Positions 8,791 to 34,272 of a DNA stretch of 34,707 nucleotides are shown in pieces (position 1 is the first letter of the stretch; each line of letters begins with the position of its first letter). A model generated the notes under the pieces. The model was not told where the DNA came from. It saw only the letters and a list, made by a program, of their open reading frames with translations, and made no database searches. A program made the translations under genes and the position numbers. Source of the stretch: Candidatus Zixiibacteriota bacterium (GTDB taxonomy: Bacteria > Zixibacteria > MSB-5A5 > GN15 > FEB-12); the NCBI GenBank assembly GCA_020348905.1, contig CP070756.1, forward strand, positions 3,232,342 to 3,267,048, given 5' to 3'.

Positions 8791-8794
8791 CGCA

Positions 8795-9676: not shown

Positions 9677-10344
9677 GACACGCGCTCCTCCAGGTAATCT
9701 TTCTCGCGAGAACCCAGATCCTCGATGAACAGAGGCGCCACATCGCTCAGGAGAAACTCGTTACTCCCGGTCCGGATTACTCGCACCTTCGCCAGGGGGA
9801 TACCAAACACTTCCCAGATCGTACGCGAGAGTTCCCGAAACCTGGGCTGCAGCGCCCATCCCAGCACCGACCTGAAGTATTCAATCTTTCCACCGACGGG
9901 AATCTCCTGACAGCACACGGCATAGGTGAAATTACGAGTCAGCGACCTAGCGATACTTTTTACCTTCCCGGGTTTAAGAACCACCCGCCCCTTCAGTGTG
10001 AACGGGTTGATCGGATCGACAATTACGGGCGGCTCAAAGTAACCGTTGCTGATGTAACATTCCGGAACAGGCGCGCCCGCCTGTCTGGCCTTTCCAAGAA
10101 ACAGTGGTGGGACGTAGGCATCGAGCATCTCTTTGCAGGTGGGCCGAATAGCCTTCCCGGCGTTCTCGCAGTCCAGTGAGAGGTAGTACCCATCACTCAG
10201 ATAATCATAATTGCCGGCCAGGTTGACCAAAGCGTCCGAACCAGACAAACTGGCCAGAGAGCGCTTGGGATCATTCTTACCCAAATCTTTCTTCGCCTCC
10301 TTTGATCGCACGAATCGGCCCTCCTTAGACGAACCGGAAATCAT
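9664..10344 (-). CDS. RLAN-domain protein (RimK-like ATP-grasp N-terminal domain) as a free-standing gene
   Basis: A 226-residue protein. After a basic, low-complexity N-terminus (1-35), residues 39-75 contain LVNLAGNYDYLSDGYYLSL and a following AGKAIRPTCKEMLD, which match the RLAN domain (NL-x5-Y-x2-S/D-GYY-x-SL, then the IRP motif). The C-terminal part with a VRVIRTGSNEFLLSDVAPL segment matches the end of RLAN just before the ATP-grasp. RLAN is of unknown function and normally covalently linked to RimK-like ligases. Its ATG overlaps the zinc-ribbon stop (ATGA) and its stop overlaps the RimK start, so translation is coupled. It likely forms a complex with the downstream ligase and helps bind substrate; that is inference. 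Confidence 0.78.
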   Translation of the reverse strand: MISGSSKEGRFVRSKEAKKDLGKNDPKRSLASLSGSDALVNLAGNYDYLSDGYYLSLDCENAGKAIRPTCKEMLDAYVPPLFLGKARQAGAPVPECYISNGYFEPPVIVDPINPFTLKGRVVLKPGKVKSIARSLTRNFTYAVCCQEIPVGGKIEYFRSVLGWALQPRFRELSRTIWEVFGIPLAKVRVIRTGSNEFLLSDVAPLFIEDLGSREKDYLEERVSWVS

Positions 10345-10556
10345 CTATCCCAATCACTGCCGGTGGATTCCCGATCATAGTAGTCGCTGGGGTCGTAATC
10401 CTCACCGCGGCGTTTCGACCGGGATCCACCCACTTCGAATTCATGATCGCAGTCGCCGCAGACGTATAGATCTATCCCATCCTCGAACGACTCCTGCAGC
10501 AACACATCGGTGCTGTTACAGCGGGGGCATTTTCTCTTTTTTCTGGACGATTCCAT
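10341..10556 (-). CDS. Small zinc-ribbon protein
   Basis: A 71-residue protein when started at the ATG at 10556, which has an AAAGGG ribosome-binding site at a good distance; a GTG at 10586 would add ten residues but has weaker support. Two CxxC knuckles (Cys10/Cys13 in CPRC, Cys33/Cys36 in CGDC) form a treble-free zinc ribbon, followed by an acidic, Asp/Tyr/Ser-rich tail likely to be disordered. The stop overlaps the RLAN start by 4 bp. It could act as a carrier or scaffold protein for the ligases, in the way that LysW, with its acidic C-terminus, carries substrates for a RimK-like ligase, or as a structural partner. The analogy to LysW is inference: the tail ends in DWDR, not the EDWGE-type end of LysW. 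Confidence 0.75.
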   Translation of the reverse strand: MESSRKKRKCPRCNSTDVLLQESFEDGIDLYVCGDCDHEFEVGGSRSKRRGEDYDPSDYYDRESTGSDWDR

Positions 10557-10675
10557 AAGTCGAACCCTTTTGCTTAACTCAAACACGAGACCTCAATTGT
10601 AAAATCCTGTATTTTTCATCTGGTGCATTGGCGTCGGCAGCGAACACTGAAAACTGCCATCACCCGACAATCGCT

Positions 10676-12055
10676 TCAATGATTTGTCGCCTGCCCTTTT
10701 ATGCCATGGTTTTCCACAAGATTCGTGGAGTTTGACGGCCCTATCGACGTGGGCAATTCCACGCATTTCGGTAGCGGCTTGATGAACTCTTGCCTGAGGC
10801 TGTATGTGTAGGCACCCTGATTGGGTACCAGCAGTATGTCGCCCTCTTTGATGCTTTGGCCAAAATAGCTGTAACCCCAGATATCATGGGGTGTGCATAG
10901 CGATCCCGCTACCAAACACTCGTGCTCTCGAAGGTCCGGGCGCGTCAAATTGATGACAGGGAAGTAATCGGTTTCGAATCGTTCCCAACCAACGGCATTC
11001 GTGCCGCCATCGGTTATGATCAGGTCCGACGACTTGACGTCGTTCACCGTTAGCAGCAAATGCATGGCATCGTTACAGAGCCAGCGACCAGGTTCCAGAC
11101 ATATAGTGCATTTCACATCCTCGGGTAATTGCCTGCTGAGAGCGCCCGAGATATGGTCGGCAAAATGGGCAATCGAACACGCTGACCACTTGTAGTGCTT
11201 GAAAGCCTCATGCTCGACTTCATCGAGCGCCGCCTGGACAATTCCTTGCGGCGTGGCTGCTTTCTGAAGCCATTCCCCCTGCTCGGGCCAGAAACCGCCG
11301 CCGACATCAATAAAGCGAATACTCCGTCGATACTTTTTTTCCAGTTGTCGCAATTCGACACCCAGTCGTGCGATGAAAATCACCTGAGATTCCGGCTTGA
11401 GGTTCCAGCTGATATGAAACTGAAGACCGCACAGATCCACGTGTTTACACCTGCTGGCCGCCTCAAAGAAGTCGGAAAGGCTCGCAAGCGGTATACCGAA
11501 CTTGCGCCATAGCCCCGATTCATCGGTCGCCAGCCGCACTCCGGCACGCACCGAGACTCCGGTCTGACCGGCTATTCTCTCGAGCTTCGTCAACTCGCTG
11601 AAACTGTCAATCAGAACGGTAACGTAATCGGCATTATCTACGGCAAGCTTAAGTTCATCCAACCGCTTGCCGGGGCCGCTAAAGACGATATCTCTGCTGC
11701 CCCAATTCAGGGCTGACTCTAGCTCCAGCCCACTCGATACATCGAGGCCCAGCCCTTCTCGAACCAAGGTCGTTGCGACGGTCGGATGGCTATTGCTCTT
11801 TAAGGCATAGTATACCCGGGTATCTGGAAGCACGGCCGAAAACGCGTCTCGAAACTGTCGGGCCCTGTTTACCAGAGTATCGGTGTCGATGGCGTACAGC
11901 GGCGAACCCTCATCGCGAATTGCTCGAAGAAAATCTTCGCGTCGGTCCAGAAGAGACTGAACAAACCTCCTCAGCTCCTGATCATCAAGCCGCGGGACCC
12001 GTCGACTGAGCAGCTCGGCAGCCTGAAGAACGAAACCAAGCGAACCGTGAGTCAT
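10676..12055 (-). CDS. PLP-dependent decarboxylase, alanine-racemase fold (LysA/ornithine decarboxylase group)
   Basis: A 459-residue enzyme of the fold-type III decarboxylases. Motifs seen: PLP lysine Lys86 in VYYALKSNSHP, His214 in LQFHISWN, the phosphate-binding glycines in DVGGGFW (250-256), EPGR (321-324), the second-subunit Cys387 and Asp391 in SLCTPHDIWG, and GAYTYS (414-419). An N-terminal extension of about 50 helical residues precedes the usual start of the barrel. Group members decarboxylate meso-diaminopimelate, ornithine, arginine or carboxynorspermidine, or a carrier-bound amino acid; the substrate cannot be fixed here. It overlaps the upstream ATP-grasp gene by 71 bp, with its own GGAGAAG site, and lies in an eight-gene operon, which argues for a specialised rather than lysine-biosynthetic role. 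Confidence 0.88.
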   Translation of the reverse strand: MTHGSLGFVLQAAELLSRRVPRLDDQELRRFVQSLLDRREDFLRAIRDEGSPLYAIDTDTLVNRARQFRDAFSAVLPDTRVYYALKSNSHPTVATTLVREGLGLDVSSGLELESALNWGSRDIVFSGPGKRLDELKLAVDNADYVTVLIDSFSELTKLERIAGQTGVSVRAGVRLATDESGLWRKFGIPLASLSDFFEAASRCKHVDLCGLQFHISWNLKPESQVIFIARLGVELRQLEKKYRRSIRFIDVGGGFWPEQGEWLQKAATPQGIVQAALDEVEHEAFKHYKWSACSIAHFADHISGALSRQLPEDVKCTICLEPGRWLCNDAMHLLLTVNDVKSSDLIITDGGTNAVGWERFETDYFPVINLTRPDLREHECLVAGSLCTPHDIWGYSYFGQSIKEGDILLVPNQGAYTYSLRQEFIKPLPKCVELPTSIGPSNSTNLVENHGIKGQATNH

Positions 12056-13340
12056 GATACTTCTCCACGTTGATAATAATCTTCTCTCTTAGATCATCGC
12101 ACTGTCTGATAAGGCATATATCCGGGTGAGGTTCAAATATGACGTGACCCAGCAGCCAGGAATCGTAATCCTCGGGAGGAAGGGTAATCTCGTGCCCCGG
12201 AGCGCGCTTGATAAATATCTCCTTCACGCTCGGATCCTCGGCGAGCTTCTCACAATTCACGCCGGCAAGCACGCCGCCCTGATTGGCAAAAAAGCGCATG
12301 CCAACATGCTCTTTCCAGAGGCTCCGTTCAGGAATGGCGTACTTTCGACATTCGGCGAAGTCCAGAGCCAGTCCGATAGTATCAAGACCGCAGCATTTCC
12401 TTATCAGGGGCGGTAGACAGTCGCCGCCAATTCTGGGGGTCAGTTCCAGCAGCACTATTGATTCGTCGCTAATTATAAAATCCACCATACAGATAGCGCG
12501 GGTAATCCCCAGCGCCTGAGCGGCGCGGCTTAGTGTCACCTGGAGCTCTTCGTTTCTGATGCGCCCGGGTAATCTTGCCGGAACCAGGTAAGCCACGGTT
12601 GTTCCAAATGAGAGTGCGTCACAGCGAAGCTTTTTGGCAACACGAACCAGCGTAACATCGTCATGGTCAATTATGAAATCAGCACTGTACTCGCGGCCAT
12701 CAATGTACTCTTCGGCCAGAACCGGCTGGTCAGGCGGGCACTCACCGGCACCGGCCGGGTTGATGTGATACATCGGCTGTTGCCCCCGCTGGGCCAATCC
12801 CGTCTTTATCATCCGGAAAGCAGTCGTCAGGTCGTAACGATCACGGCATTTGAAGGTTAGTTCGCTGCCTGACCCCATCGGCGGTTTGAGCACGACCGGG
12901 GCGCCAAGTCTTTCGAATAGCGGTAGCGCATGCCACTCGGTGGGGACCAGTTCCACCCTGGGACAACCGACGCCGCTCTCGGCCCATCTTTTCTTCGACA
13001 GAAACTTGTCTCGAGACAGTCGGACCGACTGCAACGAAGGAAAAGACAAACCAAAGTGCGTTGCCAGCCTGGCTGCCAAGCTCAACCATTCACAGTCATA
13101 ACAGGCAATACCACCCAGACTCTGATTCTTCATCTGCAGGTGTTCTTCAAGCGCCTTGACCACTTTCTCGTAGTCGAGCAATCGGCACACAATCTCGCTG
13201 GCTTCGTCCGGCTTGACCTCGGTTGAGCCTTCACGCTGCGAGGTGTCGGTCAGGAAAAGGGCTCTCCCCGGATGTTGTCTGTAGATGTACGCGATATAAT
13301 CCGGGGTGGTCCCTACCACTAATGTACGTCGGTCAGGCAT
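11985..13340 (-). CDS. ATP-grasp carboxylate-amine ligase
   Basis: A 451-residue enzyme when started at the ATG at 13340, preceded by a GGGAG site; a longer frame to 13436 would overlap the neighbour by 104 bp and is not favoured. Residues 5-100 look like a pre-ATP-grasp domain; the ATP-grasp proper has Lys152 in PVVLKPPMGSGS, the hinge LAEEYIDGREYSADF (208-222), Asp287 in MVDFI and Glu299 in LLELTPRIGGD, as in the carbamoyl-phosphate synthase/PurK-like ATP-grasp_4 group. It should form an amide bond between a carboxylate and an amine through an acyl phosphate. An 8-bp overlap with the upstream gene and a 71-bp overlap with the PLP decarboxylase indicate coupling. It is the second, unrelated ATP-grasp in this operon. 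Confidence 0.87.
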   Translation of the reverse strand: MPDRRTLVVGTTPDYIAYIYRQHPGRALFLTDTSQREGSTEVKPDEASEIVCRLLDYEKVVKALEEHLQMKNQSLGGIACYDCEWLSLAARLATHFGLSFPSLQSVRLSRDKFLSKKRWAESGVGCPRVELVPTEWHALPLFERLGAPVVLKPPMGSGSELTFKCRDRYDLTTAFRMIKTGLAQRGQQPMYHINPAGAGECPPDQPVLAEEYIDGREYSADFIIDHDDVTLVRVAKKLRCDALSFGTTVAYLVPARLPGRIRNEELQVTLSRAAQALGITRAICMVDFIISDESIVLLELTPRIGGDCLPPLIRKCCGLDTIGLALDFAECRKYAIPERSLWKEHVGMRFFANQGGVLAGVNCEKLAEDPSVKEIFIKRAPGHEITLPPEDYDSWLLGHVIFEPHPDICLIRQCDDLREKIIINVEKYHDSRFAWFRSSGCRAAQSTGPAA

Positions 13341-14331
13341 TTGGAACTCCCGGTACCGCTGACCAGACCGCCGACTTCGAAGTAGACCGAGCAGCACTGA
13401 TTCTTTCCGCAGGCATTGCCTTGGCCGGTCCCTCAATCAGATAAAGTGGGGCCGGGGTGAGATGGAACAGTGTCTTCCAATTGAAGTCACCACACAGAAA
13501 ATCCACGCTGTCGAGTTTGTGCTCGCAGGCATAGGTCATATGGTGCACATTAATGAGTTTGGCTATGCCCGGAAACCCGGCACCAGTACCGCCGGCCAGC
13601 ATGGTCAACATTCCGTTATACAGACTGCCCAGATCCACTGCGGCCGGTTCACCGTCAACGACTATCGTCACAATGCGTAACCAGTCACGCTCTCGCAGCA
13701 GATGCATCAGTGAGCGAAAGCTTTCGAGAAAGCGAAGGTCGTGGAAATACGACAGGTTACCGAATCGGCTAATGTTCATCTGACACAGAATCTCGAAGTC
13801 TTCCGGCTGATTGTAACGCCATTCAAGAGCGCGACTATCCCAGCCGGTCAGTTCTTTTCTTAGCCTCTTGGCCGTTTTGTGCGAGAAAGTCTCGAAGTAA
13901 CGGTTCATATCGTACTGGTAGGATTCCGGTACAAACAGATACCCTATTTCGTCTACCCGTTCATGGGTGCCGCCCCAATAATCATCGGCGCGCAGATAAC
14001 GGAGTTGATAAGGTCCATCCAGAGTTGCCAGCATGGTGTTCAGAATCTCTTCGCTGCCGGCGATTATCCTGTTCTGCTCCAGCCAGGTCTTTCCCTCCCA
14101 GGTCTCACCGGGAAAATAATTATACTGCCCGGTTTCCTCGTTCCAGCTAAGGGGCAAGAAACCTTTGACCGCACCGGACTCTTCCGCCACGATAAAGTGT
14201 AGCGGATGATTATAATGACGGTGAAAGCAATCCCGAACTTCCCAGAGATCGGAAACCAGTTCGGTCGGCATCAGCCGCTGCCACAGTTCGCGGCACTCAC
14301 CGATATCGGTGACTGTTCGAACGCGGTACAT
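13333..14331 (-). CDS. FemAB/BioF2-like GNAT acyltransferase
   Basis: A 332-residue protein with two GNAT-like halves. The N-terminal half (1-130) is degenerate. The C-terminal half (about 140-300) matches the Acetyltransf_6 (BioF2-like) pattern: a basic helix SHKTAKRLRKEL, then a strand pair IVVDGEPAAVDLGSL and the FPGIAKLINVHHMTYACEHKL helix ending in DFLCGDFNWKTLF. Relatives include FemAB-type aminoacyl-tRNA-dependent peptide formers and acyl-CoA N-acyltransferases; which donor is used here cannot be told. It begins 2 bp after the stop of the AdoMetDC-like gene and overlaps the ATP-grasp start by 8 bp, so it belongs to the same pathway. The last 30 residues are basic and probably disordered. 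Confidence 0.8.
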   Translation of the reverse strand: MYRVRTVTDIGECRELWQRLMPTELVSDLWEVRDCFHRHYNHPLHFIVAEESGAVKGFLPLSWNEETGQYNYFPGETWEGKTWLEQNRIIAGSEEILNTMLATLDGPYQLRYLRADDYWGGTHERVDEIGYLFVPESYQYDMNRYFETFSHKTAKRLRKELTGWDSRALEWRYNQPEDFEILCQMNISRFGNLSYFHDLRFLESFRSLMHLLRERDWLRIVTIVVDGEPAAVDLGSLYNGMLTMLAGGTGAGFPGIAKLINVHHMTYACEHKLDSVDFLCGDFNWKTLFHLTPAPLYLIEGPAKAMPAERISAARSTSKSAVWSAVPGVPNA

Positions 14332-21032: not shown

Positions 21033-22781
21033 ATGACGAAGAATAATCGATCTTTCGGAGGGGCCCTATTCACGAGACAGCTTCGGTATCTGATCTCTGC
21101 GGCTTTTATTCTGGGCAGCATGGTCTTTATCGCCTCCTGCTCCGGCGACGGAGGCGATTCTTCGGTATCATCTCTCTCAGAACCCCCGGTTGTTGAAGAC
21201 ATACCGGATCAGACTATCAATGAAGGTGAGGTGTTTGCGACAGTTTCTCTCGATCAATACGTATCCGACCCGGACAACAGCGACGCCGAGATTACCTGGA
21301 CCCTTAGCGGAGCCGATTCGCTGAGGGTTTCTATTGACTACGGCCAGATTGCCACCATACGGCTACCGTCGCTTGAATGGAACGGTTCCGAAACAATAAC
21401 TTTCACAGCGTCCGATCCGGCGGGTAATTCCTCAAGCGACGAGGCCGTTTTCAGCGTTACAGGCATCAATGATGCTCCCTACATGCTGGATATCCCGCGT
21501 CAGGTCATTTATGAGAGTTACACTTTCGACGCCATAACCCTGGATAACTATGTCTTCGATCACGACAACACCGCCGCAGAGATGACCTGGACCTGCTCGG
21601 GCAACGTCGATCTAAGCGTTGTGATAGATCCCTATCGCTTTGCCAGAATCACCATCCCTGACGCCAGTTGGACGGGTAGTGAAACGATTAGTTTTCGGGT
21701 TACCGATCCCGGCGGACTATCCAGTGAAGGTGTCGTTTCGCTTGTCGTCAACCCTGTCGTCCATGAGCCGCTGGTACTTGACGACTGGCCGGTATCGACT
21801 CCGACTGAGCAAGGCATTGATTCAGAATTGGTGCACAATACTTACCTGACGGCGGCAGGAATAGACCACCTTTACAGCCTGTTGCTTGTCAAGAACGGCT
21901 ACCTGGTTGCTGAGTGTTACTTCAATGGAACGAGTGTGGATCTGGCCATGCCCACGGCGTCGGCCACCAAGAGCTATACCTCGGCCCTGACGGGCTTAGC
22001 CTTGCGAGAAGGTTACCTGACCAGCCTTGATCAGAAGCTGATTGATTTCTTTCCCGAACTTTACTGGGCCGGCACTGACCCCCGGAAAGGTGATATTACT
22101 ATTCGCCAGATACTTCAGATGCGGTCCGGCTATCCGTGGGAAGAGGTCGACGGCTATTTCGATGACTTTATCGACGCCGTTCTTAACTGGATTCCGCTGC
22201 TTATCGAATTTCCACTGATGAGCGACCCGGGAACCCGGTACGGATATTCCAATATGACGGCCCATATCATGGCTGTGATTGTAGCCAGAGCCGTTGATAC
22301 CGATCTGCTGCCCTTTGCCAACACCTTCTTGCTCGACCCGTTGGGATATGAAAGAGTCAACTGGCCCAGAGATAGGAACGGGTACTATGTCGGGCATGGT
22401 GATGCCTCCTTCAGACCGAGAGACATGGCCAAATTTGGGTTGTTATACCTTAATGGCGGCGTTTACGATAATACCCAGATAATCCCGGCCGATTGGGTTA
22501 CCGAGTCCCTGACACCGTATTCAACCAACATCTATGGCCACGACATACTTAGCAACATAACTAACCTGTCTTACGGATACATGTGGTGGATCGGAGAGGC
22601 GGGTAATTACCATATCCAGTTTGCCTGGGGGAACGGCGGACAACTTATTGTACTGGTGTCTGATCTGAATATGGTGGTGGTTACAACTGCCGACAATTTC
22701 GTGTTCCAGTGGGATCATGAACACTGGCTTATGCATAAATCCGTCCTGGAGATGGTGGGTGAATTCATTTCTTCGCAGTGA
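21033..22781 (+). CDS. Lipoprotein: two cadherin-like domains plus beta-lactamase-type serine hydrolase (copy 1)
   Basis: A 582-residue exported lipoprotein, with lipobox IASC (Cys36) after a hydrophobic stretch. Residues 50-240 hold two tandem cadherin-like (Ig-type) domains, each opening with PP..DIP-Q..I-E and ending in a GxSSSDxxxFSV-type strand. Residues 248-582 are a class C beta-lactamase/PBP fold: SxxK motif SATK (310-313), YSN (405-407) and a WGNGG (532-536) strand in place of KTG/HTG. These are the catalytic Ser, Lys and Tyr positions, so an active esterase, amidase or peptidase is likely; antibiotic resistance is not implied. A near copy follows at once. Confidence 0.88.
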   Translation: MTKNNRSFGGALFTRQLRYLISAAFILGSMVFIASCSGDGGDSSVSSLSEPPVVEDIPDQTINEGEVFATVSLDQYVSDPDNSDAEITWTLSGADSLRVSIDYGQIATIRLPSLEWNGSETITFTASDPAGNSSSDEAVFSVTGINDAPYMLDIPRQVIYESYTFDAITLDNYVFDHDNTAAEMTWTCSGNVDLSVVIDPYRFARITIPDASWTGSETISFRVTDPGGLSSEGVVSLVVNPVVHEPLVLDDWPVSTPTEQGIDSELVHNTYLTAAGIDHLYSLLLVKNGYLVAECYFNGTSVDLAMPTASATKSYTSALTGLALREGYLTSLDQKLIDFFPELYWAGTDPRKGDITIRQILQMRSGYPWEEVDGYFDDFIDAVLNWIPLLIEFPLMSDPGTRYGYSNMTAHIMAVIVARAVDTDLLPFANTFLLDPLGYERVNWPRDRNGYYVGHGDASFRPRDMAKFGLLYLNGGVYDNTQIIPADWVTESLTPYSTNIYGHDILSNITNLSYGYMWWIGEAGNYHIQFAWGNGGQLIVLVSDLNMVVVTTADNFVFQWDHEHWLMHKSVLEMVGEFISSQ

Positions 22782-22888
22782 CGTGGGAAATGAATGTAAC
22801 CTACCCGATGCTGCGAAACTGGCATATTATGCGCACACTTCTGAGAGCATTCAACCGCGCTTTCGTCGGCAAAGGCTCACGCTGGACA

Positions 22889-24631
22889 ATGAAGAGTATT
22901 CCAACTCTCCCACTCGTCTCGGGTAAAGAATGGTCCCGGCATGGGTTCTTGACGGCGCTGGTCCTCGGAACGGCCATCTTTATCGCCTCCTGCTCTGACA
23001 ACGGAGATGATTCCTCGGTATCATCGGACTCACAACCGCCGGTTGTTGAAGGCATACCGGATCAGAGTGTCAATGAAGGTGAGGTGTTCGCAACCATTGC
23101 CCTCGATCAGTACGTTTCTGACGCTGATAACACCGATTCCGAGATTACCTGGACCTTCAGCGGAGCTGATTCGCTAAGAGTAACTATCGATTACCCCAGG
23201 ATTGCCACCGTACGACTTCCCTCAATGGAGTGGAACGGTTCTGAAACGATAACCTTCACGGCGAATGATTCGGCCGGTAATTCCTCCAGCGACACCGCCG
23301 TTTTCACCGTCAATGGCGTTAATGACGTTCCCTACGTGCTGGACATCCCGCCACAGGTCATTTATGAGAGTCTAACCTTCGACGCGATAACCCTGGATGA
23401 CTATATCTTCGATCACGACAACACCGCCGCCGAGATGACCTGGACCTACTCGGGCAACGTCGATCTAGCGGTTGTGATAGATTCCTATCGCTTTGCCAGA
23501 ATTGCAGTTCCTGACCCCGGTTGGACGGGCAGTGAAACGATCACCTTTCGGGCTACCGATCCGGCCGGACTATCCAGTGAACGTGCCGTTACGTTCATCG
23601 TCAAGCCTGTCGTTCATGACCCGCTGGTACTTGACGACTGGCCGGTATCGACTCCGGCCGAACAGGGTCTGGATACGGAGTTGGTGCACAATACATATTT
23701 GGAAGCGGCAGGAATAGACCACATTTACAGCCTCCTGATAGTCAAAAACGGCTACCTGGTTGCTGAGTGCTACTTCAACGGAGCATCGGCGTCCTTTGCC
23801 TCGACCATGGCGTCAGCCACCAAAAGCTGGACCTCGGCCCTGACCGGCCTAGCTCTACGGGAAGGTCACCTCACCAGCCTGGATCAAAAGATGGTTGATT
23901 TCTTTCCCGAACTTAACTGGGCCAGCACTGACTCCAGGAAAGGTGATATAACTATTCGCCAGATGCTTCAGATGCGGGCCGGGTACCCGAATGAGGATGA
24001 GTATTACTGGGATCTCTTGCTGGAGAACTTCTATCAAGATTTGAGTCTGATGCTGGTCGAGTTTCCGCTGTCTTTCGACCCCGGAACGGATCGCGCGTAC
24101 TCCAATCTGACGTCACACATGATTGGAGTGATTGTAGCCAGGGCCTCCGACACCGACCTTAAATCCTTGCTCCAGACTCATCTTCTTGACCCGTTGGAGT
24201 GCGGGCCGGTATCCTGGCCGGTGGACGGGCAGGGATACTGTGTCGGCTGGGGCGGTTTATGTGTCCGTCCGAGAGACATGGCCAAATTCGGACTCGTGTT
24301 TCTAAACAACGGCGTATACAAAGGTACGCAGGTTATCCCGGCTGACTGGGTAACCGAATCGCTGACGGCGTACACAACATCCATTACTGAATGGCGATAT
24401 ACCGATCATTTGACCGACATCAACTACGGATACCAGTGGTGGGGCGGCAGGGCGGGTACTCACGATGTTCATTTCGCGGCGGGGGCCTGCGGCCAGCTGA
24501 TTGTCATAGTGCCTGACATGGATATGGTTTTGGTTACTTCTGCCGAGAAGACTCCTCTTTTTGACCCTGAGTCAGGTCACCGGTTTGTATCCATCGTGGA
24601 CATGGTCGCCAAATTCATCTCTTTACAGTGA
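22889..24631 (+). CDS. Lipoprotein: two cadherin-like domains plus beta-lactamase-type serine hydrolase (copy 2)
   Basis: A 580-residue paralogue of the upstream gene, matching it across its full length. The start at 22889 gives a signal peptide of the same size as copy 1 (lipobox IASC, Cys35); a longer frame from GTG at 22778 is possible but would add 37 atypical residues. It keeps SATK (309-312) and a YSN motif (AYSNLTSHM). The C-terminal strand reads AAGACGQL where copy 1 has AWGNGGQL, and the region before it diverges, including a stretch with several Cys. This suggests divergence of substrate after a tandem duplication. The next gene begins 12 bp downstream. Confidence 0.87.
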   Translation: MKSIPTLPLVSGKEWSRHGFLTALVLGTAIFIASCSDNGDDSSVSSDSQPPVVEGIPDQSVNEGEVFATIALDQYVSDADNTDSEITWTFSGADSLRVTIDYPRIATVRLPSMEWNGSETITFTANDSAGNSSSDTAVFTVNGVNDVPYVLDIPPQVIYESLTFDAITLDDYIFDHDNTAAEMTWTYSGNVDLAVVIDSYRFARIAVPDPGWTGSETITFRATDPAGLSSERAVTFIVKPVVHDPLVLDDWPVSTPAEQGLDTELVHNTYLEAAGIDHIYSLLIVKNGYLVAECYFNGASASFASTMASATKSWTSALTGLALREGHLTSLDQKMVDFFPELNWASTDSRKGDITIRQMLQMRAGYPNEDEYYWDLLLENFYQDLSLMLVEFPLSFDPGTDRAYSNLTSHMIGVIVARASDTDLKSLLQTHLLDPLECGPVSWPVDGQGYCVGWGGLCVRPRDMAKFGLVFLNNGVYKGTQVIPADWVTESLTAYTTSITEWRYTDHLTDINYGYQWWGGRAGTHDVHFAAGACGQLIVIVPDMDMVLVTSAEKTPLFDPESGHRFVSIVDMVAKFISLQ

Positions 24632-25740: not shown

Positions 25741-27198
25741 TCACCGTAGATCATACTTTCCGAAGGCAACAAAGGCCACCACAAAGCTGAGAAGCGAGGC
25801 CATCACAATCAATCCGAAATCCACCACGGCCGGGGTTACCGCTTCGGCCACCGTTGCTACGGGCGGCGTCAGGCGTGGCAATCCGGTCAGGTCCAGACCG
25901 GAGCTCTCACGCGGCAGGTCAATATTGAACTTGCCATCCGATGTCGACGATACATGTATGCGATCGGTGAGGCCGGACTCTTCCTGCTTCTTTTTGGTGA
26001 AAGCCAGAAAAACCTCTCGAAACTCGGTGAAAGCCTCGGTGTAGCGCGACTTCAGATTCATATCCGTGCCGGCGATAGAAATCGCACCCAACTGAAAGGC
26101 TGAGGCCGGTGATATTCGCGACAGGGCAAAGGCCAGCTTCTGTTGAACAACCTTACGTCTTTCCAGGTCATCGAGTAGTTGCCGTTCATGATCTTCTATC
26201 TTTTGCTCCATCAACTGGCGCAGGGAGTCTTCCTCCTGCATCCGATTCCACAGCACCTTTTCCCACTCTTCGTCGGTCATCTGGTCTGGATCGGCCTTGG
26301 CTGCCTGCCAGCGTTCACGTGCCTCCTCATGGAACTGCTTCCACTGGTCGCTGGCGAAGGCGTCTCGCTGGCCTTCGATCTCGGCCATGCGTGGAACCTC
26401 AATGATGCTCCCTGCCGCCATCACACCCGCCCGCGGTATAATCATGATAAAGCCCACCCAGCAGACAAGGCAGACGAGAAACGAAATCGACGAGCGACGG
26501 GTGAGAGTCGATATCATCACGCCGAAGAATATAAAAAACGTGAATAGGGCCAGGGCGAGCGCGATCAGAGACGTTACCCTTACCCAATCTCCGGGCAGCA
26601 TCGGCACCCGGAAAACCATGACCAGCAAAACGGCCAGCAACGTCGGTATTAGAATTGACACCACCAGGCCGAGCCACGCCCCCACGGCTTTGGCTATCAG
26701 GTATTGTGCGCGTGGCACGGCATTTGAGAATACCAGCCGTAGTGTTCCGCCCTCTTTCTCGCCGCTTATGGCGTCGTAGGTGAACAGGATTGCCAGAAGT
26801 GTCAGAACGAACAAAACGATGAAAGTGAAATCGACAAATCTAAACAGGGCGAAGATAGGATCCTGGGAGTAGGTACTCCCCATCAGCTTCACGTTCAGCC
26901 GGTCGGCTATAATAGACCACCGTCCGACATCAAATGTCAGTCCCGCCGCGAATATCTGGAGCGGGTCGGGTCGGCGAAAGACCTTATCGGCAAGATTACC
27001 CCAGGATGTCTGCTCCTGCAGTCGTTGTTCGTTCAGGTCAATGGCAGCCTCGTACTGTTTCACCGACGATCGATACTCCGCAATGCCCGTGCAGACCGAT
27101 ATCAGTATCAGAGCAGAGCAGACGGCGAAGGTCGCGGTAAACTTGGGGCTTACCAGTATGGCCTTTAGTTCTTTTCTAATCAAAGTGGCCAGCATCAT
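25741..27198 (-). CDS. ABC-2-type permease (second of two paralogues)
   Basis: A 485-residue inner-membrane protein. TM1 lies at about residues 18-38; a loop with charged residues follows; then a cluster of TM helices (about 135-270), including the conserved SGEKEGGTLRLVFSNAVPR segment that couples to the ATPase. A large, hydrophilic coiled-coil-like region (about 285-440) lies on the outside, and a final TM ends in FGKYDLR. This layout resembles ABC-2 permeases with a large extracytoplasmic insertion. The paralogue upstream shares the coupling segment and the F-G-(K/R)-Y-D-(L/V)-R end. It is the last gene of a five-gene operon. The substrate is unknown. Confidence 0.88.
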   Translation of the reverse strand: MMLATLIRKELKAILVSPKFTATFAVCSALILISVCTGIAEYRSSVKQYEAAIDLNEQRLQEQTSWGNLADKVFRRPDPLQIFAAGLTFDVGRWSIIADRLNVKLMGSTYSQDPIFALFRFVDFTFIVLFVLTLLAILFTYDAISGEKEGGTLRLVFSNAVPRAQYLIAKAVGAWLGLVVSILIPTLLAVLLVMVFRVPMLPGDWVRVTSLIALALALFTFFIFFGVMISTLTRRSSISFLVCLVCWVGFIMIIPRAGVMAAGSIIEVPRMAEIEGQRDAFASDQWKQFHEEARERWQAAKADPDQMTDEEWEKVLWNRMQEEDSLRQLMEQKIEDHERQLLDDLERRKVVQQKLAFALSRISPASAFQLGAISIAGTDMNLKSRYTEAFTEFREVFLAFTKKKQEESGLTDRIHVSSTSDGKFNIDLPRESSGLDLTGLPRLTPPVATVAEAVTPAVVDFGLIVMASLLSFVVAFVAFGKYDLR

Positions 27199-27215: not shown

Positions 27216-28622
27216 TCATCGTACGTCGTAACGACCGAAGGCCAGGAATCCGCCGGCGAAGAACAACAAATTGAAGATTGTCAAAATCCCCATATCGACC
27301 GCCGCGACCGCCACCGACTGTTGCAGTGGGACAGGTTGGTAGCCGAAGCGCGGCAACTCGTTGGGGTCAATCGGTTCCTGGTTACTCTCACCGATTTTTA
27401 TAACTTTCATGCCGGCGGCCGGATTCAGGCCCGTTTTCTCTTTGATGAATTGACCGTAACTGTCCTGATAGTTCGAGGCCTCGTCGACGAAGTGCTCCTT
27501 GAGCGTGAGAAAAGTTCCGGCCAGAGCCGAGGTGGCAAGAGTAAGCGACGTCGACGGCGATACCCTGGCGATATTGAAGGCGAGCCTCTGCTGCTGCTGC
27601 TCTCGATTGTGACGTTCCTCGTCGAGCCTCCCCCGATAGATCTGCATTTTTGCCTCTCGCACGTCCATAAGCGAATCCATAAACCTGGCGAAATCGGTCG
27701 CGGCACAGGCCGTGTTCGCCTTGGGCTGAAAATCAGCCATCAGATCGCGCGATTCCTTCCACAATTGTTCGCGGTAGCTGGCCTTCTGCGTAGAAAGATA
27801 ATCAACTGAAGGGACTTCGACAGCTCGCCCGGCAAGAAGCACCGATACGCGGGGAACGACCAGCACGCCTACAATCCATATCACCAGCATGGCCAGAAAA
27901 GAACTGGAGGATCGATGAGTGATGGCTGAAACGAATACCGACATCGTGAGAAACACTCCGAAATACAAAAGACCGGTCAGAACAATGAGCAGTAGCCGAA
28001 GCCATTCTCCGGCGCTCAATGAAATCCCCATTATCGGCAATAGAAGGCAGCCCGCCCCAACGGCAATCAACAACGAAACCGTCAGAGCCGCCCCGGAACC
28101 GACCAACTTACCTGCTATAAAAATATGTCGCGGTACGGCATTGGCCAGCGCCAGTCGAAGGGTACCGCGCTCCTTCTCGCCACACACCGCATCAAAACCG
28201 AGCAGTATGGCGAATAGCGAAAATACAATCTGGAAAATGAATTCCAGATCGAGAAACCGAAAGACAGCGTAGATGGGATCCTCGCTGTAGCGGCTGTCTG
28301 TCGCGGTGAGTTCACCCCGTCCCGTTACCGTAATGGTCCGGCCAATATCGTTGGACACGCCGGAAACGAGCGCGGCCAGCGGTTGCGGCGGCAAGAATAC
28401 CCGGTGTTGTTCCATCTGATTCCAGTCGGTGAGGCCATCCAGTTGACGAAGGTTTTCGGCTGCCGAGGCCTCATATTGCCGTTGATTGAGATTGTGACGG
28501 GTGGCGCCGACCAGAAAAGCGCCTATTATAAGCACGGCCGATACGACGAAGGTCAGCAAGAACTTGGTCGATCCGAGCAGGTCACGAATCTCTTTCTCGA
28601 CTAGAGCTCGAAACATAATCAT
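27216..28622 (-). CDS. ABC-2-type permease (first of two paralogues)
   Basis: A 468-residue membrane protein with the same layout as its neighbour: TM1 at about residues 20-40, coupling segment CGEKERGTLRLALANAVPR, a helix cluster, a hydrophilic extracytoplasmic region (about 280-420) and a last TM ending in FGRYDVR. Its start overlaps the ATPase stop by 4 bp. With the second permease it should form a heterodimeric transport channel driven by the ATPase. The similar ends and coupling motifs show the two arose by duplication; overall identity looks only moderate, so the event is old. Confidence 0.88.
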   Translation of the reverse strand: MIMFRALVEKEIRDLLGSTKFLLTFVVSAVLIIGAFLVGATRHNLNQRQYEASAAENLRQLDGLTDWNQMEQHRVFLPPQPLAALVSGVSNDIGRTITVTGRGELTATDSRYSEDPIYAVFRFLDLEFIFQIVFSLFAILLGFDAVCGEKERGTLRLALANAVPRHIFIAGKLVGSGAALTVSLLIAVGAGCLLLPIMGISLSAGEWLRLLLIVLTGLLYFGVFLTMSVFVSAITHRSSSSFLAMLVIWIVGVLVVPRVSVLLAGRAVEVPSVDYLSTQKASYREQLWKESRDLMADFQPKANTACAATDFARFMDSLMDVREAKMQIYRGRLDEERHNREQQQQRLAFNIARVSPSTSLTLATSALAGTFLTLKEHFVDEASNYQDSYGQFIKEKTGLNPAAGMKVIKIGESNQEPIDPNELPRFGYQPVPLQQSVAVAAVDMGILTIFNLLFFAGGFLAFGRYDVR

Positions 28623-29392
28623 ATCTCCACCACATCAGCGACCTGCGGTGACTGGCTATGTCCGGCCATGTGCTGCATGTAAATCTGCACCAGGTCCTGA
28701 CCCTGCAATTCCGAAGCTTGCTTCTGCATTATCATCCGACCCCGATCCATAATCGCAATTGTGTCCGCAACTTCTCTGGCCCGAAATATATCGTGGGTCG
28801 ACATAAGAATAGCCTTGCCTTCCTTCCTGAGCGAATCGAGAAGCTGAACAAAATCGTAGCCTGCTTTGGGATCCAGCCCCGCCGTAGGTTCATCGAGCAA
28901 TATCGCCGGAGCGTTCTTTAAAATGGCTATGGCTATTCCGCACTTCTGTCGCATGCCTTTGGAAAAACCCTTGAGACGTTTGTTGTGCGACCCCTCGGAC
29001 AGACCAACCCTCAACAGGACATCGCGGTAATCCCTGGTCCGGTATTCATTGTGCCCGCTCAGCCGGGCGAAGAAGTCGAGATTCTGAATTGCCGTGAAAT
29101 TAGGGTAAAGCACAACATTCTCTGATACGAATGCCAGTTGCGATTTTGCTTTGAGCGGCTCAAGGTGGGCTGCCACGCCGTTGACGCGGGCCTCACCCTC
29201 GGTGGGGTCCAGAAGGTTAAGAAACAGATTTATGGCGGTTGTCTTGCCGGCCCCGTTGCCACCCAGCATGGCGAACAGTTCACCGGCATGTATGGCGAAA
29301 TTGACATGATCCAGCGCCAGGACCCCATCTTCATATCGCTTGGTCAAGTCGATCGCTTCCAGGACGGGGTGGTTGTCATAATTTGTCTTCAT
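28619..29392 (-). CDS. ABC transporter ATP-binding protein
   Basis: A 257-residue ATPase. Walker A is GGNGAGKTT (44-52), the signature is FSKGMRQK (143-150), an LSGGQ variant common in ABC-2 exporters, Walker B is ILLDE (164-168) with DEPTAGLDP, and the switch His is His200 in STHD. A Q-loop-like SENVVLYPNFT lies at about 90-100. It powers the two permeases encoded directly downstream. The upstream neighbour, 38 bp away, is the NEW3 membrane protein. Family members of this type export lipids, polysaccharides, peptides or act on membrane assembly; the sequence does not select one. Confidence 0.95.
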   Translation of the reverse strand: MKTNYDNHPVLEAIDLTKRYEDGVLALDHVNFAIHAGELFAMLGGNGAGKTTAINLFLNLLDPTEGEARVNGVAAHLEPLKAKSQLAFVSENVVLYPNFTAIQNLDFFARLSGHNEYRTRDYRDVLLRVGLSEGSHNKRLKGFSKGMRQKCGIAIAILKNAPAILLDEPTAGLDPKAGYDFVQLLDSLRKEGKAILMSTHDIFRAREVADTIAIMDRGRMIMQKQASELQGQDLVQIYMQHMAGHSQSPQVADVVEI

Positions 29393-29430: not shown

Positions 29431-30933
29431 TTAGCGACGGGATAAACGAATCCCGAACACCACAACGCCCGCCACCAGACCAATCAGCAAAGTGACGATG
29501 GCCAGGGTACCGATCAGGCTGGTCTCGGGTTTCACCTCGACCGTAACCGTCTTATCTTCAGCGGTCACGGGCTCGGTGTTGGACAGGCCACTGGTACGAA
29601 GCCTGACCTGGTACTTACCTACCGCCACATCCGACGGCGGAGTAAAGGTCAGAAACACGCGGGCTTCTTCATTGATATCAAGCGACGGAACAACTCTTGG
29701 CTCTACGGTCCGGGACCAGCCAAACGGCAGGTCAACACTAAGCTCAATGTTATCGAGCCGATTGCTGCCCTCGTTGACGAGATCAACATACATTTCGACC
29801 GCACCGTCGGCATTTATCGCATGATACAGCTGAGGTGCGCGGACGCTGATGTCACCCTTGCCCCTCGGTATCAACTCCAGCCGCACATAACCGACTTCCA
29901 GCGCTTCCAGCTCCGTTTCGGTCCAGTTGCGCTCACGGAGATCTTTCAGGTCATCGATTTTCTCCCTCGGCAGGACCAGCACATAGAAAGGAATCGGCTT
30001 GTCCATGAGCACTTCGCTCGATGGTCGGTCCGGCAGTGACACCTCGAGTGCTGCCCGCTTGGTGCGATTTCCCTGGGTGAACTTAACCTGACTCAGTCGC
30101 ACCTGACCGGTTGGATCCTTGAAGAAGCGGCCGATCTGTTGTGGCAAATTGACCACTTCCAGAGAAAACGTGTTGGAGGTCCCGGAGAAAAGCTCCATGG
30201 TAAGGTCAAAAGATGACGAGGTGCCCAGTTCCACCTCCTGCGAAAACTGCTCCGACTGCACCGCCACCCGATCGACCGAGGCATCTTTCTCCAGGAATAC
30301 CTTCATGCGACGCTCGACGCCGTTTGCGTAATAAATGAATATCGTTACCGCATCGAGGTCCTGAAGTAACTCGAAATCCAACCTGATCGGTTCATCAAAC
30401 CGCAATTGACTGATCTTGGCTTCGTATGGCCGACTGATTATCGCCCCATCATCGTTTTGAATAGACACATATACATTATGAATAACGTCGGGCTGAAGAG
30501 AACGAAACAGCTCATCATCCATACGCAGCAGTTGCTGAAATTCAGCCGTACCACCCGATGTGTTGGCAATCGTCAGTCTGACATGCTTGGATTCGTCGGC
30601 GGCCTGGTACTTGACCGCCCGGGCCACCGATACATACTGTTCCTCAAAAAGCACCGCCAGTAGCGACTGTTGATAATTAACCTCGGCATCGTAGAATCTC
30701 GCCCGGCTCTGCTCCAAGTCAAGCGAGGTGATCATCCCCTTTTCGAACAGTTGCTGCTGTCGTTCATACTCAGCCCGGACTGCTTCATAAGCTTGCTTCG
30801 CCCTTTTCAACCCAAGAAGCCTGTACTCATTGTCCCTTTGATTGAACGGGTTAAATATCTGAGCCGAAGCAGCTGTCGCACAAACAAGAAGAATTAATGC
30901 GAACAGGCATTTGTGAAGATCTACCCTGGTCAT
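29431..30933 (-). CDS. Membrane-anchored protein with OEP-like coiled coil and NEW3/Ig domain
   Basis: A 500-residue protein with signal peptide (about 1-24). Residues 38-115 form a coiled coil whose EYERQQQLFEKGMITSLDLEQS stretch (in parts) resembles the TolC/HlyD hairpin pattern L-x-x-x-G-x-I-(S/T). Several Ig-like beta regions follow; residues 365-470 match the NEW3-type module (VDLVNEGSNRLDNIELSVDLPFGW, then NEEARVFLTFTPPSDVAVGKYQVRL, in parts). A TM helix at about 475-495 with basic tail anchors the C-terminus, so most of the protein is periplasmic. NEW3 proteins often accompany ABC-2 exporters. Here it may bridge the transporter to envelope components. It overlaps the PDZ gene by 4 bp. 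Confidence 0.75.
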   Translation of the reverse strand: MTRVDLHKCLFALILLVCATAASAQIFNPFNQRDNEYRLLGLKRAKQAYEAVRAEYERQQQLFEKGMITSLDLEQSRARFYDAEVNYQQSLLAVLFEEQYVSVARAVKYQAADESKHVRLTIANTSGGTAEFQQLLRMDDELFRSLQPDVIHNVYVSIQNDDGAIISRPYEAKISQLRFDEPIRLDFELLQDLDAVTIFIYYANGVERRMKVFLEKDASVDRVAVQSEQFSQEVELGTSSSFDLTMELFSGTSNTFSLEVVNLPQQIGRFFKDPTGQVRLSQVKFTQGNRTKRAALEVSLPDRPSSEVLMDKPIPFYVLVLPREKIDDLKDLRERNWTETELEALEVGYVRLELIPRGKGDISVRAPQLYHAINADGAVEMYVDLVNEGSNRLDNIELSVDLPFGWSRTVEPRVVPSLDINEEARVFLTFTPPSDVAVGKYQVRLRTSGLSNTEPVTAEDKTVTVEVKPETSLIGTLAIVTLLIGLVAGVVVFGIRLSRR

Positions 30934-31736
30934 TGATTCACGCGTCTCTTTATTACCCTGGCGCCTTCTGTTGCTTCCGGTTTAGCGAACGCCATCTCGA
31001 CCGTCTCGTCGCCGCGAGTCACCGTCAAATTGATCTGGTCGCCGACACTCAGACCGGCGATCAGCTCGGCGAATTGTGCGGGCGACGTGACACTTGTGCC
31101 GTTGCAGACAGTGATGATATCTCCCTTCTGCAGCGTCATACCAGGTATTGTAGACGTCCCACCCGGCAGTATTTCATCTACTCTCACCTGATTCTCTTTG
31201 CCAATCAACATCAACGAAAGGTCACCGACCACCTCCATCGTTTCGCCGGGTCCACAGGAGGCTGTCTTAACCATCAGCTGGGGACCTTCAAGTTTGTCTG
31301 GATCGGCTTTTGGGAAAGACACCATGCGAATTGAACCGTCCCGCCTGACCGCCAGTTTGATTTCTTCTCCGATCGCCAGACTGTTCAAAATCCCATTAGC
31401 TTCCTCTGCACTTTTGAAGCGCTTACCGTTTATCATCACCACTACATCGCCTTGACGGAGATCCACGTCACGGTATGCCGCCATCCGTTGGGAGGCAGAT
31501 GTCGGCTCAATCAGAACTTTCAGACTGTCATTCTCAAATACCAGGACGCCACCAAGCTCATTGAGCATAACCACCTGGTCCGGGCTAAGCACCATTCTAT
31601 GCTTCTGCGTGCCGGAAGCCCCCTCAGCAGCCTGCGACCCCGCTGCGCATTGAGCGTACAACGGCGATGCTGAGATAACGGCAATCCCGAGAAGCCCCCC
31701 GGCCCAGCCTGTTAACTTCTTGGTAAGACTCCGCAT
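30930..31736 (-). CDS. Periplasmic protein with two PDZ domains
   Basis: A 268-residue protein started at the ATG at 31736, which has a strong AAGGAG site; the longer frame to 31784 has a poorer start. Signal peptide residues 1-29 (cleavage near SPLYAQ). PDZ1 (about 60-142) includes LRQGDVVVMINGKRFKSAEEANG, and PDZ2 (about 165-252) includes LQKGDIITVCNGTSVTSPAQFAELI, the typical G-D-I/V-x-x-x-N-G loop. No protease domain is present, so it is a binding or scaffold protein. First gene of the ABC operon, directly downstream of a regulator-binding-site array, and divergent from the two-component genes. Confidence 0.85.
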   Translation of the reverse strand: MRSLTKKLTGWAGGLLGIAVISASPLYAQCAAGSQAAEGASGTQKHRMVLSPDQVVMLNELGGVLVFENDSLKVLIEPTSASQRMAAYRDVDLRQGDVVVMINGKRFKSAEEANGILNSLAIGEEIKLAVRRDGSIRMVSFPKADPDKLEGPQLMVKTASCGPGETMEVVGDLSLMLIGKENQVRVDEILPGGTSTIPGMTLQKGDIITVCNGTSVTSPAQFAELIAGLSVGDQINLTVTRGDETVEMAFAKPEATEGARVIKRRVNQ

Positions 31737-31784
31737 TCTTTGCTCCTTTCTTTTTCCTGTCGTTTCACGGGTTCTCTTACGCAT

Positions 31785-31813
31785 TAGATAACGCGTTGGT
31801 TGCCAACTACATA
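31785..31813 (-). promoter_or_regulatory. Putative activated promoter of the PDZ-ABC operon
   Basis: On the minus strand a TATCTA -10 box (31785-31790) is 17 bp from a poor -35 (TATGTA, 31808-31813). The first of the GTTA repeats begins at 31814, touching the -35, as at promoters activated by OmpR/PhoB-type regulators. Confidence 0.45.
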
Positions 31814-31849
31814 GTTAAGGTAGGTTACCTGGTGTTAAAAGATGTTAAA
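31814..31849. promoter_or_regulatory. Four GTTA direct repeats in 10-bp phase: probable response-regulator binding array
   Basis: GTTAAG, GTTACC, GTTAAA and GTTAAA begin at 31814, 31824, 31834 and 31844: an exact 10-bp period, so all face the same side of the helix. The array lies between the PDZ-ABC operon (-) and the histidine kinase/OmpR-type regulator operon (+). OmpR-family proteins bind such direct repeats as tandem dimers. Assignment to the regulator at 33574 is inferred from position. Confidence 0.65.
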
Positions 31850-31887
31850 GGGCCTGATTACTTCTTCGGATTGCCGTATATTTGATT

Positions 31888-33570
31888 ATGGCCTTGTCGA
31901 ACAGGAAAGTATCCGCCGTGGCAGCCCTCATTGCCGCGGCGCTCACCGGGTTGGTCTTACTGCAGCTGTACCTGTTGAGAAACGCCATGGACCAGCAAGA
32001 GGCCGCATTCGACGCGAACGTGCTCTCGGCTATGAACTCGGCGGTACTGGGCCTGGCAGACGACGAGGCTGTAGCCGCTGCAATCGACATTGCTTCGTCA
32101 GATACATCCCGACATGAGTTATCGGTCATTGCCATGATGGCGACCGGCAATGCGGCCGAATGTAATCCGATGGATTCCGCTTATGACGAAGATTCCACCG
32201 AAGTTGACGTGATGAAGCTGCGGGAACAGCAGATACGGTATTACGTTCCTTCCCCACAGAGAGTAGTCATGCGGATGCATCGACTCGACGACAAAACGGA
32301 TTCTATTCTCACTGACAGTTTCCTGCCGACCGGCACGCACCATATTGTGGTCGACAGCAGCCTGGCCGCCGAAGGGTCTTATCAGATCACTATGACATCC
32401 GACAGCGGCTGCAGTTTCATACCGCTCTCGGGTGATGTCACCCTGGAAACCGACAGTTCTCGATACGATTTGGTGCGGCGGGTAGTCACTCAGCTGGCCG
32501 GCCGCGAGATCAAGCCGATTGAGGAACGAGTGGATACTACCCGGCTCAAGGAACTACTGGACAACCGACTTACTAAGGTCGGAATAGACCTGGAATACGC
32601 CTGGGGAATCACGGCTGACACAGGAGAATTTTTCTGGCTGGTGTCGTCGAAACAACATACTGATGATCTCATGCGGTCACAGTTCAGAGCACAACTTTTC
32701 TCGCACGATCTCTTTCCCACCCGCGCCAGTCTGGCGCTATTCTTTCCCGAAGCGGGGTCGTTCCTGTGGTGGCAATCCGGCCCCCTGCTCGCCGCGACTC
32801 TTCTATTCGTCCTGATAATCGTATTTTGCTTTGCCTACGCCATCAGGGCGCTGATAGTCCAGCGCCGTCACGCGGCTTTGATGGTAGACTTCGTCAACAA
32901 TATGACACACGAGTTCAAAACGCCCATTTCTACGGTCGCTCTTGCCTGCGAAGCCATCCAGCGTACCGACATAATTGGCGACACTGACCGCGTTAAATCT
33001 TTCTCCGAAATGATCCAGGCCGAAAACCGTCGCATGCGAAGACAAACCGAAAAGATCCTGCAGATGGCCGCCTTGGAGGAGAGTGACTACGAACTGAAAC
33101 TGGAGGATGTGGATGTCCACTCCGTAATAACTGAAGCCCTGAGTGCGATCTCGCTGATGGTTGACAAGCTTCAGGGTCAGATCGAGTCCCACCCCGATGC
33201 CACACGTCATAATATAAAGGCCGATCGGGTTCACGTCGCGGCCATGATCAACAATCTACTGGATAACGCATTGAAGTACTCGCCCGATCATCCACACATC
33301 ACCGTGCGAACACGAAGCACGAGCGATGGACTTCATGTAATAGTCGAGGATCGCGGTGTCGGCATAAGTGCCGACCATGTCAGGCGGGTATTTGACAAGT
33401 TTTACCGGGTACCGTCCGGCAATATTCACGATGTCAAGGGCTTTGGCCTGGGCCTGTCGTACGTAGCGCTTATGATGAAAGCCCACGGCGGCAGCGTAAA
33501 ACTTGACAGCGAACCGAAGCGGGGCACCACGGTGGAACTATGGTTTCCGTTCAAAGATCATCGCGACTAG
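31888..33570 (+). CDS. Transmembrane sensor histidine kinase
   Basis: A 560-residue kinase started at the ATG at 31888 (a TTG six bases earlier is possible). TM1 (about residues 10-30) and TM2 (about 298-322) enclose a periplasmic sensor of about 265 residues with no recognised fold. The H-box FVNNMTHEFKTPIST places the phosphorylated His at 341. The N-box MINNLLDNALKYS, G1 VEDRGVGIS and the GFGLGLSYV lid motif complete the HATPase domain. There is no HAMP domain between TM2 and the H-box. The response-regulator gene begins 3 bp after its stop. The kinase probably senses an envelope signal linked to the adjacent ABC exporter. Confidence 0.93.
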   Translation: MALSNRKVSAVAALIAAALTGLVLLQLYLLRNAMDQQEAAFDANVLSAMNSAVLGLADDEAVAAAIDIASSDTSRHELSVIAMMATGNAAECNPMDSAYDEDSTEVDVMKLREQQIRYYVPSPQRVVMRMHRLDDKTDSILTDSFLPTGTHHIVVDSSLAAEGSYQITMTSDSGCSFIPLSGDVTLETDSSRYDLVRRVVTQLAGREIKPIEERVDTTRLKELLDNRLTKVGIDLEYAWGITADTGEFFWLVSSKQHTDDLMRSQFRAQLFSHDLFPTRASLALFFPEAGSFLWWQSGPLLAATLLFVLIIVFCFAYAIRALIVQRRHAALMVDFVNNMTHEFKTPISTVALACEAIQRTDIIGDTDRVKSFSEMIQAENRRMRRQTEKILQMAALEESDYELKLEDVDVHSVITEALSAISLMVDKLQGQIESHPDATRHNIKADRVHVAAMINNLLDNALKYSPDHPHITVRTRSTSDGLHVIVEDRGVGISADHVRRVFDKFYRVPSGNIHDVKGFGLGLSYVALMMKAHGGSVKLDSEPKRGTTVELWFPFKDHRD

Positions 33571-33573
33571 CGT

Positions 33574-34272
33574 ATGGAAAAAGCGAAGCTAAAGATACTT
33601 TTGCTCGAAGACGATCCCAACCTGGGCCTGATCGTGCAGGAGCATTTGACACTCAACGGCTACGACGTCACTCTCTGTGGCGACGGCCAGTCCGGCACGG
33701 AAGCATACCGAACAGGCCCATTTGATCTTTGCCTGGTAGATGTCATGATGCCCAAGAAGGATGGTTTCACTTTCGTCCGGGAACTCCGCAGAGTTGACGA
33801 GCAGACGCCGGTAATATTTCTCACGGCCAAAGAACTCAAAGAGGATCGCATCACCGGTTTCAAGATCGGCTGTGATGATTATATCACGAAACCGTTCTCG
33901 GTCGAAGAACTGCTCCTTAGAATCCGGGCAGTGCTGAGGAGGACCAAGCCGTCCTCGGTGGAAAGCGATGAAACCAGATTCCAAATCGGTGATTACACGT
34001 TCGACAGCCGGTGCAGGGTGTTGAAATACGGCAAAACAGAAAGGACACTTACCGCACGAGAATCAGAATTGCTGCATCTTCTCTGCCGCTACCTTGATCG
34101 GACCCTGCCGCGCGACCAGGCCCTGCGCGAGATTTGGGGCGACGAAGGTTACTTCGCCGGTCGTAGTATGGATGTATTCATTACCAAGCTCCGCAAGCAC
34201 CTTCAGGATGATGACCGGATTTCCATCCTGAGTGTCCACGGCAAGGGTTTCCGGCTGACCATCAGCGACTGA
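33574..34272 (+). CDS. OmpR/PhoB-family response regulator
   Basis: A 232-residue two-domain protein. The receiver (about 6-120) has acidic residues EDD (12-14), phospho-acceptor Asp56 in LVDVMMP, Thr84 in IFLTAKE and Lys106 in YITKPF. The DNA-binding winged helix (about 135-230) has LTARESELLHLL, and the recognition part RSMDVFITKLRKHLQDD with a VHGKGFRLT wing. The gene is co-transcribed with the kinase. Its DNA-binding family recognises direct repeats, which fits the four phased GTTA repeats upstream (31814-31849); control of both divergent operons is likely. Confidence 0.95.
   Translation: MEKAKLKILLLEDDPNLGLIVQEHLTLNGYDVTLCGDGQSGTEAYRTGPFDLCLVDVMMPKKDGFTFVRELRRVDEQTPVIFLTAKELKEDRITGFKIGCDDYITKPFSVEELLLRIRAVLRRTKPSSVESDETRFQIGDYTFDSRCRVLKYGKTERTLTARESELLHLLCRYLDRTLPRDQALREIWGDEGYFAGRSMDVFITKLRKHLQDDDRISILSVHGKGFRLTISD

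Follow-up and report, generated by a model that had tools for sequence, protein, structure and literature searches.

Genes and features of the locus

The window, a stretch of 34,707 nucleotides from the genome of a Candidatus Zixiibacteriota bacterium, contains towards its end a divergent locus of seven genes that is conserved in the phylum, in which a histidine kinase and a response regulator are read in one direction, and an operon encoding an exported PDZ protein, a NEW3-domain protein and an ABC transporter is read in the other (Table 1). Between the two operons lies an array of four GTTA units, a placement that the initial annotation had proposed and that the neighboring genes bear out.

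Table 1. Coordinates of the genes and regulatory features at the divergent locus (positions in the window)
Feature	Position	Strand	Remark
ABC-2 type permease	25741..27198	-	
ABC-2 type permease	27216..28622	-	
ABC transporter ATPase	28619..29392	-	
NEW3-domain protein: signal/anchor, N-terminal coiled coil, beta domains, C-terminal membrane helix	29431..30933	-	
Exported protein with two PDZ domains	30930..31736	-	Start ATG 31736 behind AGGAG 31743-31747
-10 element TATCTA, PDZ/NEW3/ABC operon promoter	31785..31790	-	23 bp from array
-35 slot TATGTA (poor), PDZ operon promoter	31808..31813	-	Abuts array; 17-bp spacer from -10 element
Four-unit GTTA array, proposed operator of the adjacent response regulator	31814..31847	+	Units 31814-31817, 31824-31827, 31834-31837, 31844-31847
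-10 element TATATT, kinase-regulator promoter	31877..31882	+	Start codon 5 nt downstream
Histidine kinase (HisKA and HATPase_c; N-terminal membrane anchor and extracytoplasmic domain)	31888..33570	+	
Response regulator, OmpR/PhoB family, RprY-like, proposed to bind the array	33574..34272	+	

The start codon of the kinase is most likely the ATG at 31888, which is conserved in relatives. The response regulator displays a receiver domain (PF00072, E 3.4e-26) followed by a winged-helix Trans_reg_C domain (PF00486, E 9.3e-16), which is the domain order of the OmpR/PhoB family. Its best curated family was found to be RprY (NCBIfam NF051850), with a score of 291 bits that lies below that family's cut-off of 370 bits, and for that reason the protein is termed only RprY-like. 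In a tree of the regulator, the sequences of this phylum stood apart from those of the Bacteroidota, with most deep forks left open, and solved structures found by sequence provided no tie between the regulator's contact residues and GTTA. A fold search with the NEW3 protein returned only beta-sandwich matches of low TM-score, which indicated no function; from gene content alone, a role of the locus in an 'envelope response' is plausible.

Several additional elements were observed outside of this locus. Two adjacent and clearly duplicated long open reading frames at 21033-24631 (582 and 617 residues) appear, from inspection of their translations by eye, to encode cadherin-like repeats followed by a serine-hydrolase- or beta-lactamase-like part, and a run of genes on the minus strand at 7663-14331, judged in the same way, comprises an acetyltransferase/peptidase fusion, ATP-grasp-like proteins and a PLP-decarboxylase-like protein, and may represent a peptide-ligation or small-molecule cluster. 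The 17-mer TGTTAAGTGCGGTTAAT is found at two distant places in the same genome (L037, G000:C1:212046; and L041, G000:C1:803334), which are perhaps copies of a repeat.

Uniqueness of the array and its conservation within the phylum

When the sequence of the array is read directly, an exact 10-bp period extends across all four GTTA units, as had initially been claimed. A scan for three or more units at this spacing (GTTAN6GTTAN6GTTA), which the initial annotation had suggested as a check, returned the array as the sole such place in the 3,267,048-base genome; when up to three mismatches to the four-unit pattern were allowed, every match apart from the array and its shifted register carried three of them. 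The number of four-unit arrays expected in this genome is approximately 0.0009 from its base composition and 0.0002 from its observed frequency of GTTA, in agreement with the earlier assertion that such spacing is unlikely to arise by chance. A fortuitous and functionless repetition is at odds both with these expectations and with the retention of the array across 37 genomes in which most flanking positions are variable, and that explanation can be regarded as already refuted by conservation.

Paired units (GTTA-N6-GTTA) displayed no enrichment in the same genome, with 43 occurrences versus 79 for a reversed control, and the signal is therefore that of a single array. A wider regulon was considered and rejected on the basis of this lack of enrichment and of the location of most of the inspected pairs inside open reading frames; elsewhere in the phylum, three-unit sites were no more common than those of the reversed control. 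Weaker sites may exist at other positions in this genome.

A pattern scan of 132 genomes from the phylum identified exactly one four-unit array in 37 of them, compared to a single match in all of the genomes for the reversed pattern. All of the arrays that were examined precede orthologs of the kinase-regulator pair and in almost every case face the PDZ/NEW3/ABC operon, and the array persists across relatives while its flanks and neighbors change. Among 98 genomes searched for the kinase at a threshold of E < 1e-40 (the window's own genome included), an ortholog was found in 33, of which 31 carry an exact array and two carry an array with one changed unit, and the array was found in none of the 65 genomes that lack the ortholog. 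The corresponding Fisher p value (1.7e-23) ignores relatedness, and the statistics of this co-occurrence are inflated because the operon is passed on along with the kinase-regulator pair. Of 30 kinase-ortholog loci from these genomes that were placed in one orientation, nearly all display a four-unit array before the kinase, the exceptions being one locus with a changed unit (L025) and one that ends before the place of the array (L026).

The NEW3 protein is present in 40 genomes of the phylum, four of which lack an exact array. Three of these were rejected as true exceptions: in two of them a single unit, in both cases the second, is altered (to GTCA in G017 and to GTTG in G019), and in the third (G042) the contig comes to an end. 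The fourth (G083) possesses the operon, with neither a kinase ortholog nor an array. The architecture of the operon itself varies in places. In one genome (G063) the PDZ gene is absent and the NEW3 gene starts 89 bp from the array; in another (L097, G031:C1) the NEW3 gene is split, with its N-terminal part at the array and the rest approximately 0.7 Mb away (G031:C1:2025384-2026520), as a result of either a rearrangement or an assembly error.

Because the scan selected for them, the 16 GTTA letters do not vary among the 37 arrays. Beyond those letters, an A follows units 1, 3 and 4 in 34, 37 and 37 of the 37 arrays, respectively, and a T precedes units 2, 3 and 4 in 30, 33 and 36 of them. The second unit (31824-31827) is the weakest of the array, and its flanking A is the least conserved.

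Two divergent promoters flanking the array

Conserved promoter elements are found on both sides of the array. On the side of the exporter operon, a TATnnT-like hexamer lies on the minus strand 23 bp away from the array, and the position of its TA is the same in 36 of the 37 genomes. The -35 slot of that promoter is poor, as the initial annotation had indicated in describing a weak element beside the array, and a TTGACA-like consensus was found at this position in none of the 37 genomes. On the opposite side, about 29 bp separate the array from the -10 element of the kinase promoter, and a TATATT-like hexamer is located at an offset of 62-64 from the array start in 31 of the 37 genomes. The start codon lies 5-7 nt behind this element in 34 of the 37, and the kinase mRNA is therefore probably leaderless, a mode of translation that seems to be conserved across the phylum.

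Because two divergent -10 elements flank the array, neither of them covered by it, the array would form the center of a bidirectional promoter. Direct half-sites at a spacing of 10-11 bp near a promoter are the mark of an OmpR-family tandem-repeat operator, and such an arrangement is found here, with a 10-bp period and two conserved -10 elements.

Related arrays beyond the phylum

An alignment of the kinase, used to scan public genomes, recovered 80 loci, mostly from Bacteroidota. Within a region that begins 150 bases before the kinase start and ends 60 bases inside the gene, GTTA-N6-GTTA was found in 34 of 70 loci and GTTA-N7-GTTA in 23, with other spacings in no more than two and the reverse orientation in no more than three. 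When KSB1 and Krumholzibacteriia were left out, a GTTA pair at 10 or 11 bp was present in 44 of 68 loci, compared to an expectation of 0.76 for the same number of loci from dinucleotide shuffles (with a shuffle maximum of 4). The NEW3 protein was not found in the Bacteroidota genomes tested, and among 39 genomes tested outside of the phylum, KSB1 excepted, there was no NEW3/ABC operon.

In the candidate phylum KSB1, the NEW3 protein was found in 19 of 82 genomes. Twelve of those 19 harbor a strong kinase ortholog, and nine of the 12 display a four-unit array; the remainder consist of a genome with three units (G248), one with a two-unit box (G187), and one (G137) in which an unrelated gene separates the operon, which carries four units, from the kinase, which carries a two-unit box. 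In KSB1 genome G198 the operon is present without a kinase ortholog and without an array. In a locus from Krumholzibacteriia (L144), an array of four units lies before the kinase and faces, at L144 2532-3915, a divergent gene for a different protein of 433 residues that is possibly a beta-propeller. It appears from this that the array can be kept when its partner operon is replaced.

These distributions bear upon the question of whether the array might serve solely for autoregulation of the kinase-regulator pair, with the exporter operon as a divergent bystander. The retention of GTTA boxes by related Bacteroidota kinases in genomes that lack the NEW3/ABC operon, and the replacement of that operon by another gene in Krumholzibacteriia, would be consistent with such an arrangement. 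However, the KSB1 operon that is separated from its kinase has a four-unit array of its own, the operon's -10 element keeps the same distance to the array in 36 of 37 genomes, and the array is missing from operons without the regulator (G083 and KSB1 G198); a purely autoregulatory array is accordingly judged to be improbable. It is moderately probable that GTTAA-N5/6-GTTAA is an old binding code of the RprY branch of response regulators, shared by Bacteroidota, KSB1, Krumholzibacteriia and this phylum, and that in this phylum and KSB1 it became a four-unit bidirectional operator, with the regulator serving essentially one locus per genome that unites kinase, regulator and exporter.

A proposed operator for the adjacent regulator

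The array is proposed to be the operator of the adjacent RprY-like regulator and the center of a bidirectional promoter, through which both the exporter operon and the regulator's own kinase-regulator operon would be controlled; on the strength of sequence comparisons, this reading is assigned a probability of roughly 0.85. As suggested by their families, the kinase would phosphorylate the regulator, which by analogy to OmpR/PhoB proteins would then occupy the four GTTA half-sites in head-to-tail order, with two dimers probably sharing one face of the helix. From the position and conservation of the array, the bound regulator would be expected to control the PDZ/NEW3/ABC operon, the poor -35 slot of which abuts the array, and likewise its own operon. 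Autoregulation, a possibility that the initial annotation had missed, is no less likely than control of the exporter operon, because the array holds a nearly fixed position before the kinase promoter.

Recognition of GTTA by this regulator is putative, and is indicated by the company that the array keeps and by its conservation, which leaves some room for a different DNA-binding protein as its occupant. That alternative is very unlikely, given that the array strictly accompanies the kinase-regulator pair in several phyla and among differing neighbors, and that this genome contains no further strong site for a global regulator.

The sign of the regulation is less firmly indicated than the identity of the operator. 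Activation is moderately favored at both promoters, on account of their poor -35 slots and by analogy with SaeR. It is possible, with a lower probability, that the regulator instead represses one or both promoters, with its phosphorylated or unphosphorylated form deciding which. RprY of Porphyromonas gingivalis, which binds its own promoter in gel shifts, has been proposed as a repressor of chaperone genes (PMC3646045), and the array points in opposite directions relative to the two genes; both observations would suit repression. Activation provides a better fit to -10 elements that the array leaves uncovered and to -35 slots unlike TTGACA, and SaeR activates from the same word (PMC5083920). 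As a consequence of the opposite orientations, it is not certain that the same mode of action applies at both promoters.

In nearly all of the genomes that have an array, it is the sole four-unit site, and the system thus appears to act as a dedicated local switch, not as a global regulator. The suggestion of the initial annotation that this is a tandem site of the OmpR/PhoB type is supported by direct half-sites at 10 bp, and that spacing, the loss of which in relatives would have spoken against it, has been kept in 37 exact arrays and in two with one changed unit. Its further suggestion of a linkage between kinase, regulator and exporter is well supported by a locus shared by two phyla and by the absence of the array where the operon occurs without the regulator.

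Comparison with known systems

Regulators of the OmpR family, such as TorR, CpxR, PmrA and PhoB, recognize direct half-sites that are spaced by approximately one helical turn and are bound in head-to-tail order; four decamers are known for TorR, and repeats of 10-11 bp for the others, with half-site words that include GTAAA (CpxR) and CTTAA (PmrA). The array differs from those operators in its word and its regulator, and they are not known to be associated with a divergent kinase/exporter locus of such gene content. The kind of device is already known, and its one-site-per-genome distribution here is unusually clean.

The SaeR box of Staphylococcus aureus (GTTAAN6GTTAA), copies of which are carried by the sae promoter itself (PMC5083920), resembles the array in its half-site word GTTAA, its direct repetition and its use by a response regulator of the OmpR/PhoB family. 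Unlike the array, SaeR boxes have an 11-bp period, consist of half-site pairs and serve many scattered target genes, whereas four half-sites at a period of 10, here and in all 37 arrays, occupy one genomic site between two divergent operons. The second unit of the array often lacks the second A of GTTAA, and the regulator is nearer to RprY than to SaeR.

The closest curated family is that of RprY, related loci of which (mostly in Bacteroidota) display GTTA pairs upstream of the kinase, although the regulator described here scores below that family's cut-off. In P. gingivalis the partner kinase RprX has been lost (PMC3646045, PMC6032018). The words 'motif', 'consensus' and 'binding site' are absent from those two papers, and judged against them, the proposal that RprY-type regulators use the GTTA pair as their box appears to be new. 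The comparison offers a precise candidate operator in a lineage that seems to have received little study, together with a prediction of the DNA word that such regulators recognize in Bacteroidota. It also ties an uncharacterized PDZ/NEW3/ABC exporter to one sensor kinase, which should aid the search for its signal and substrate.
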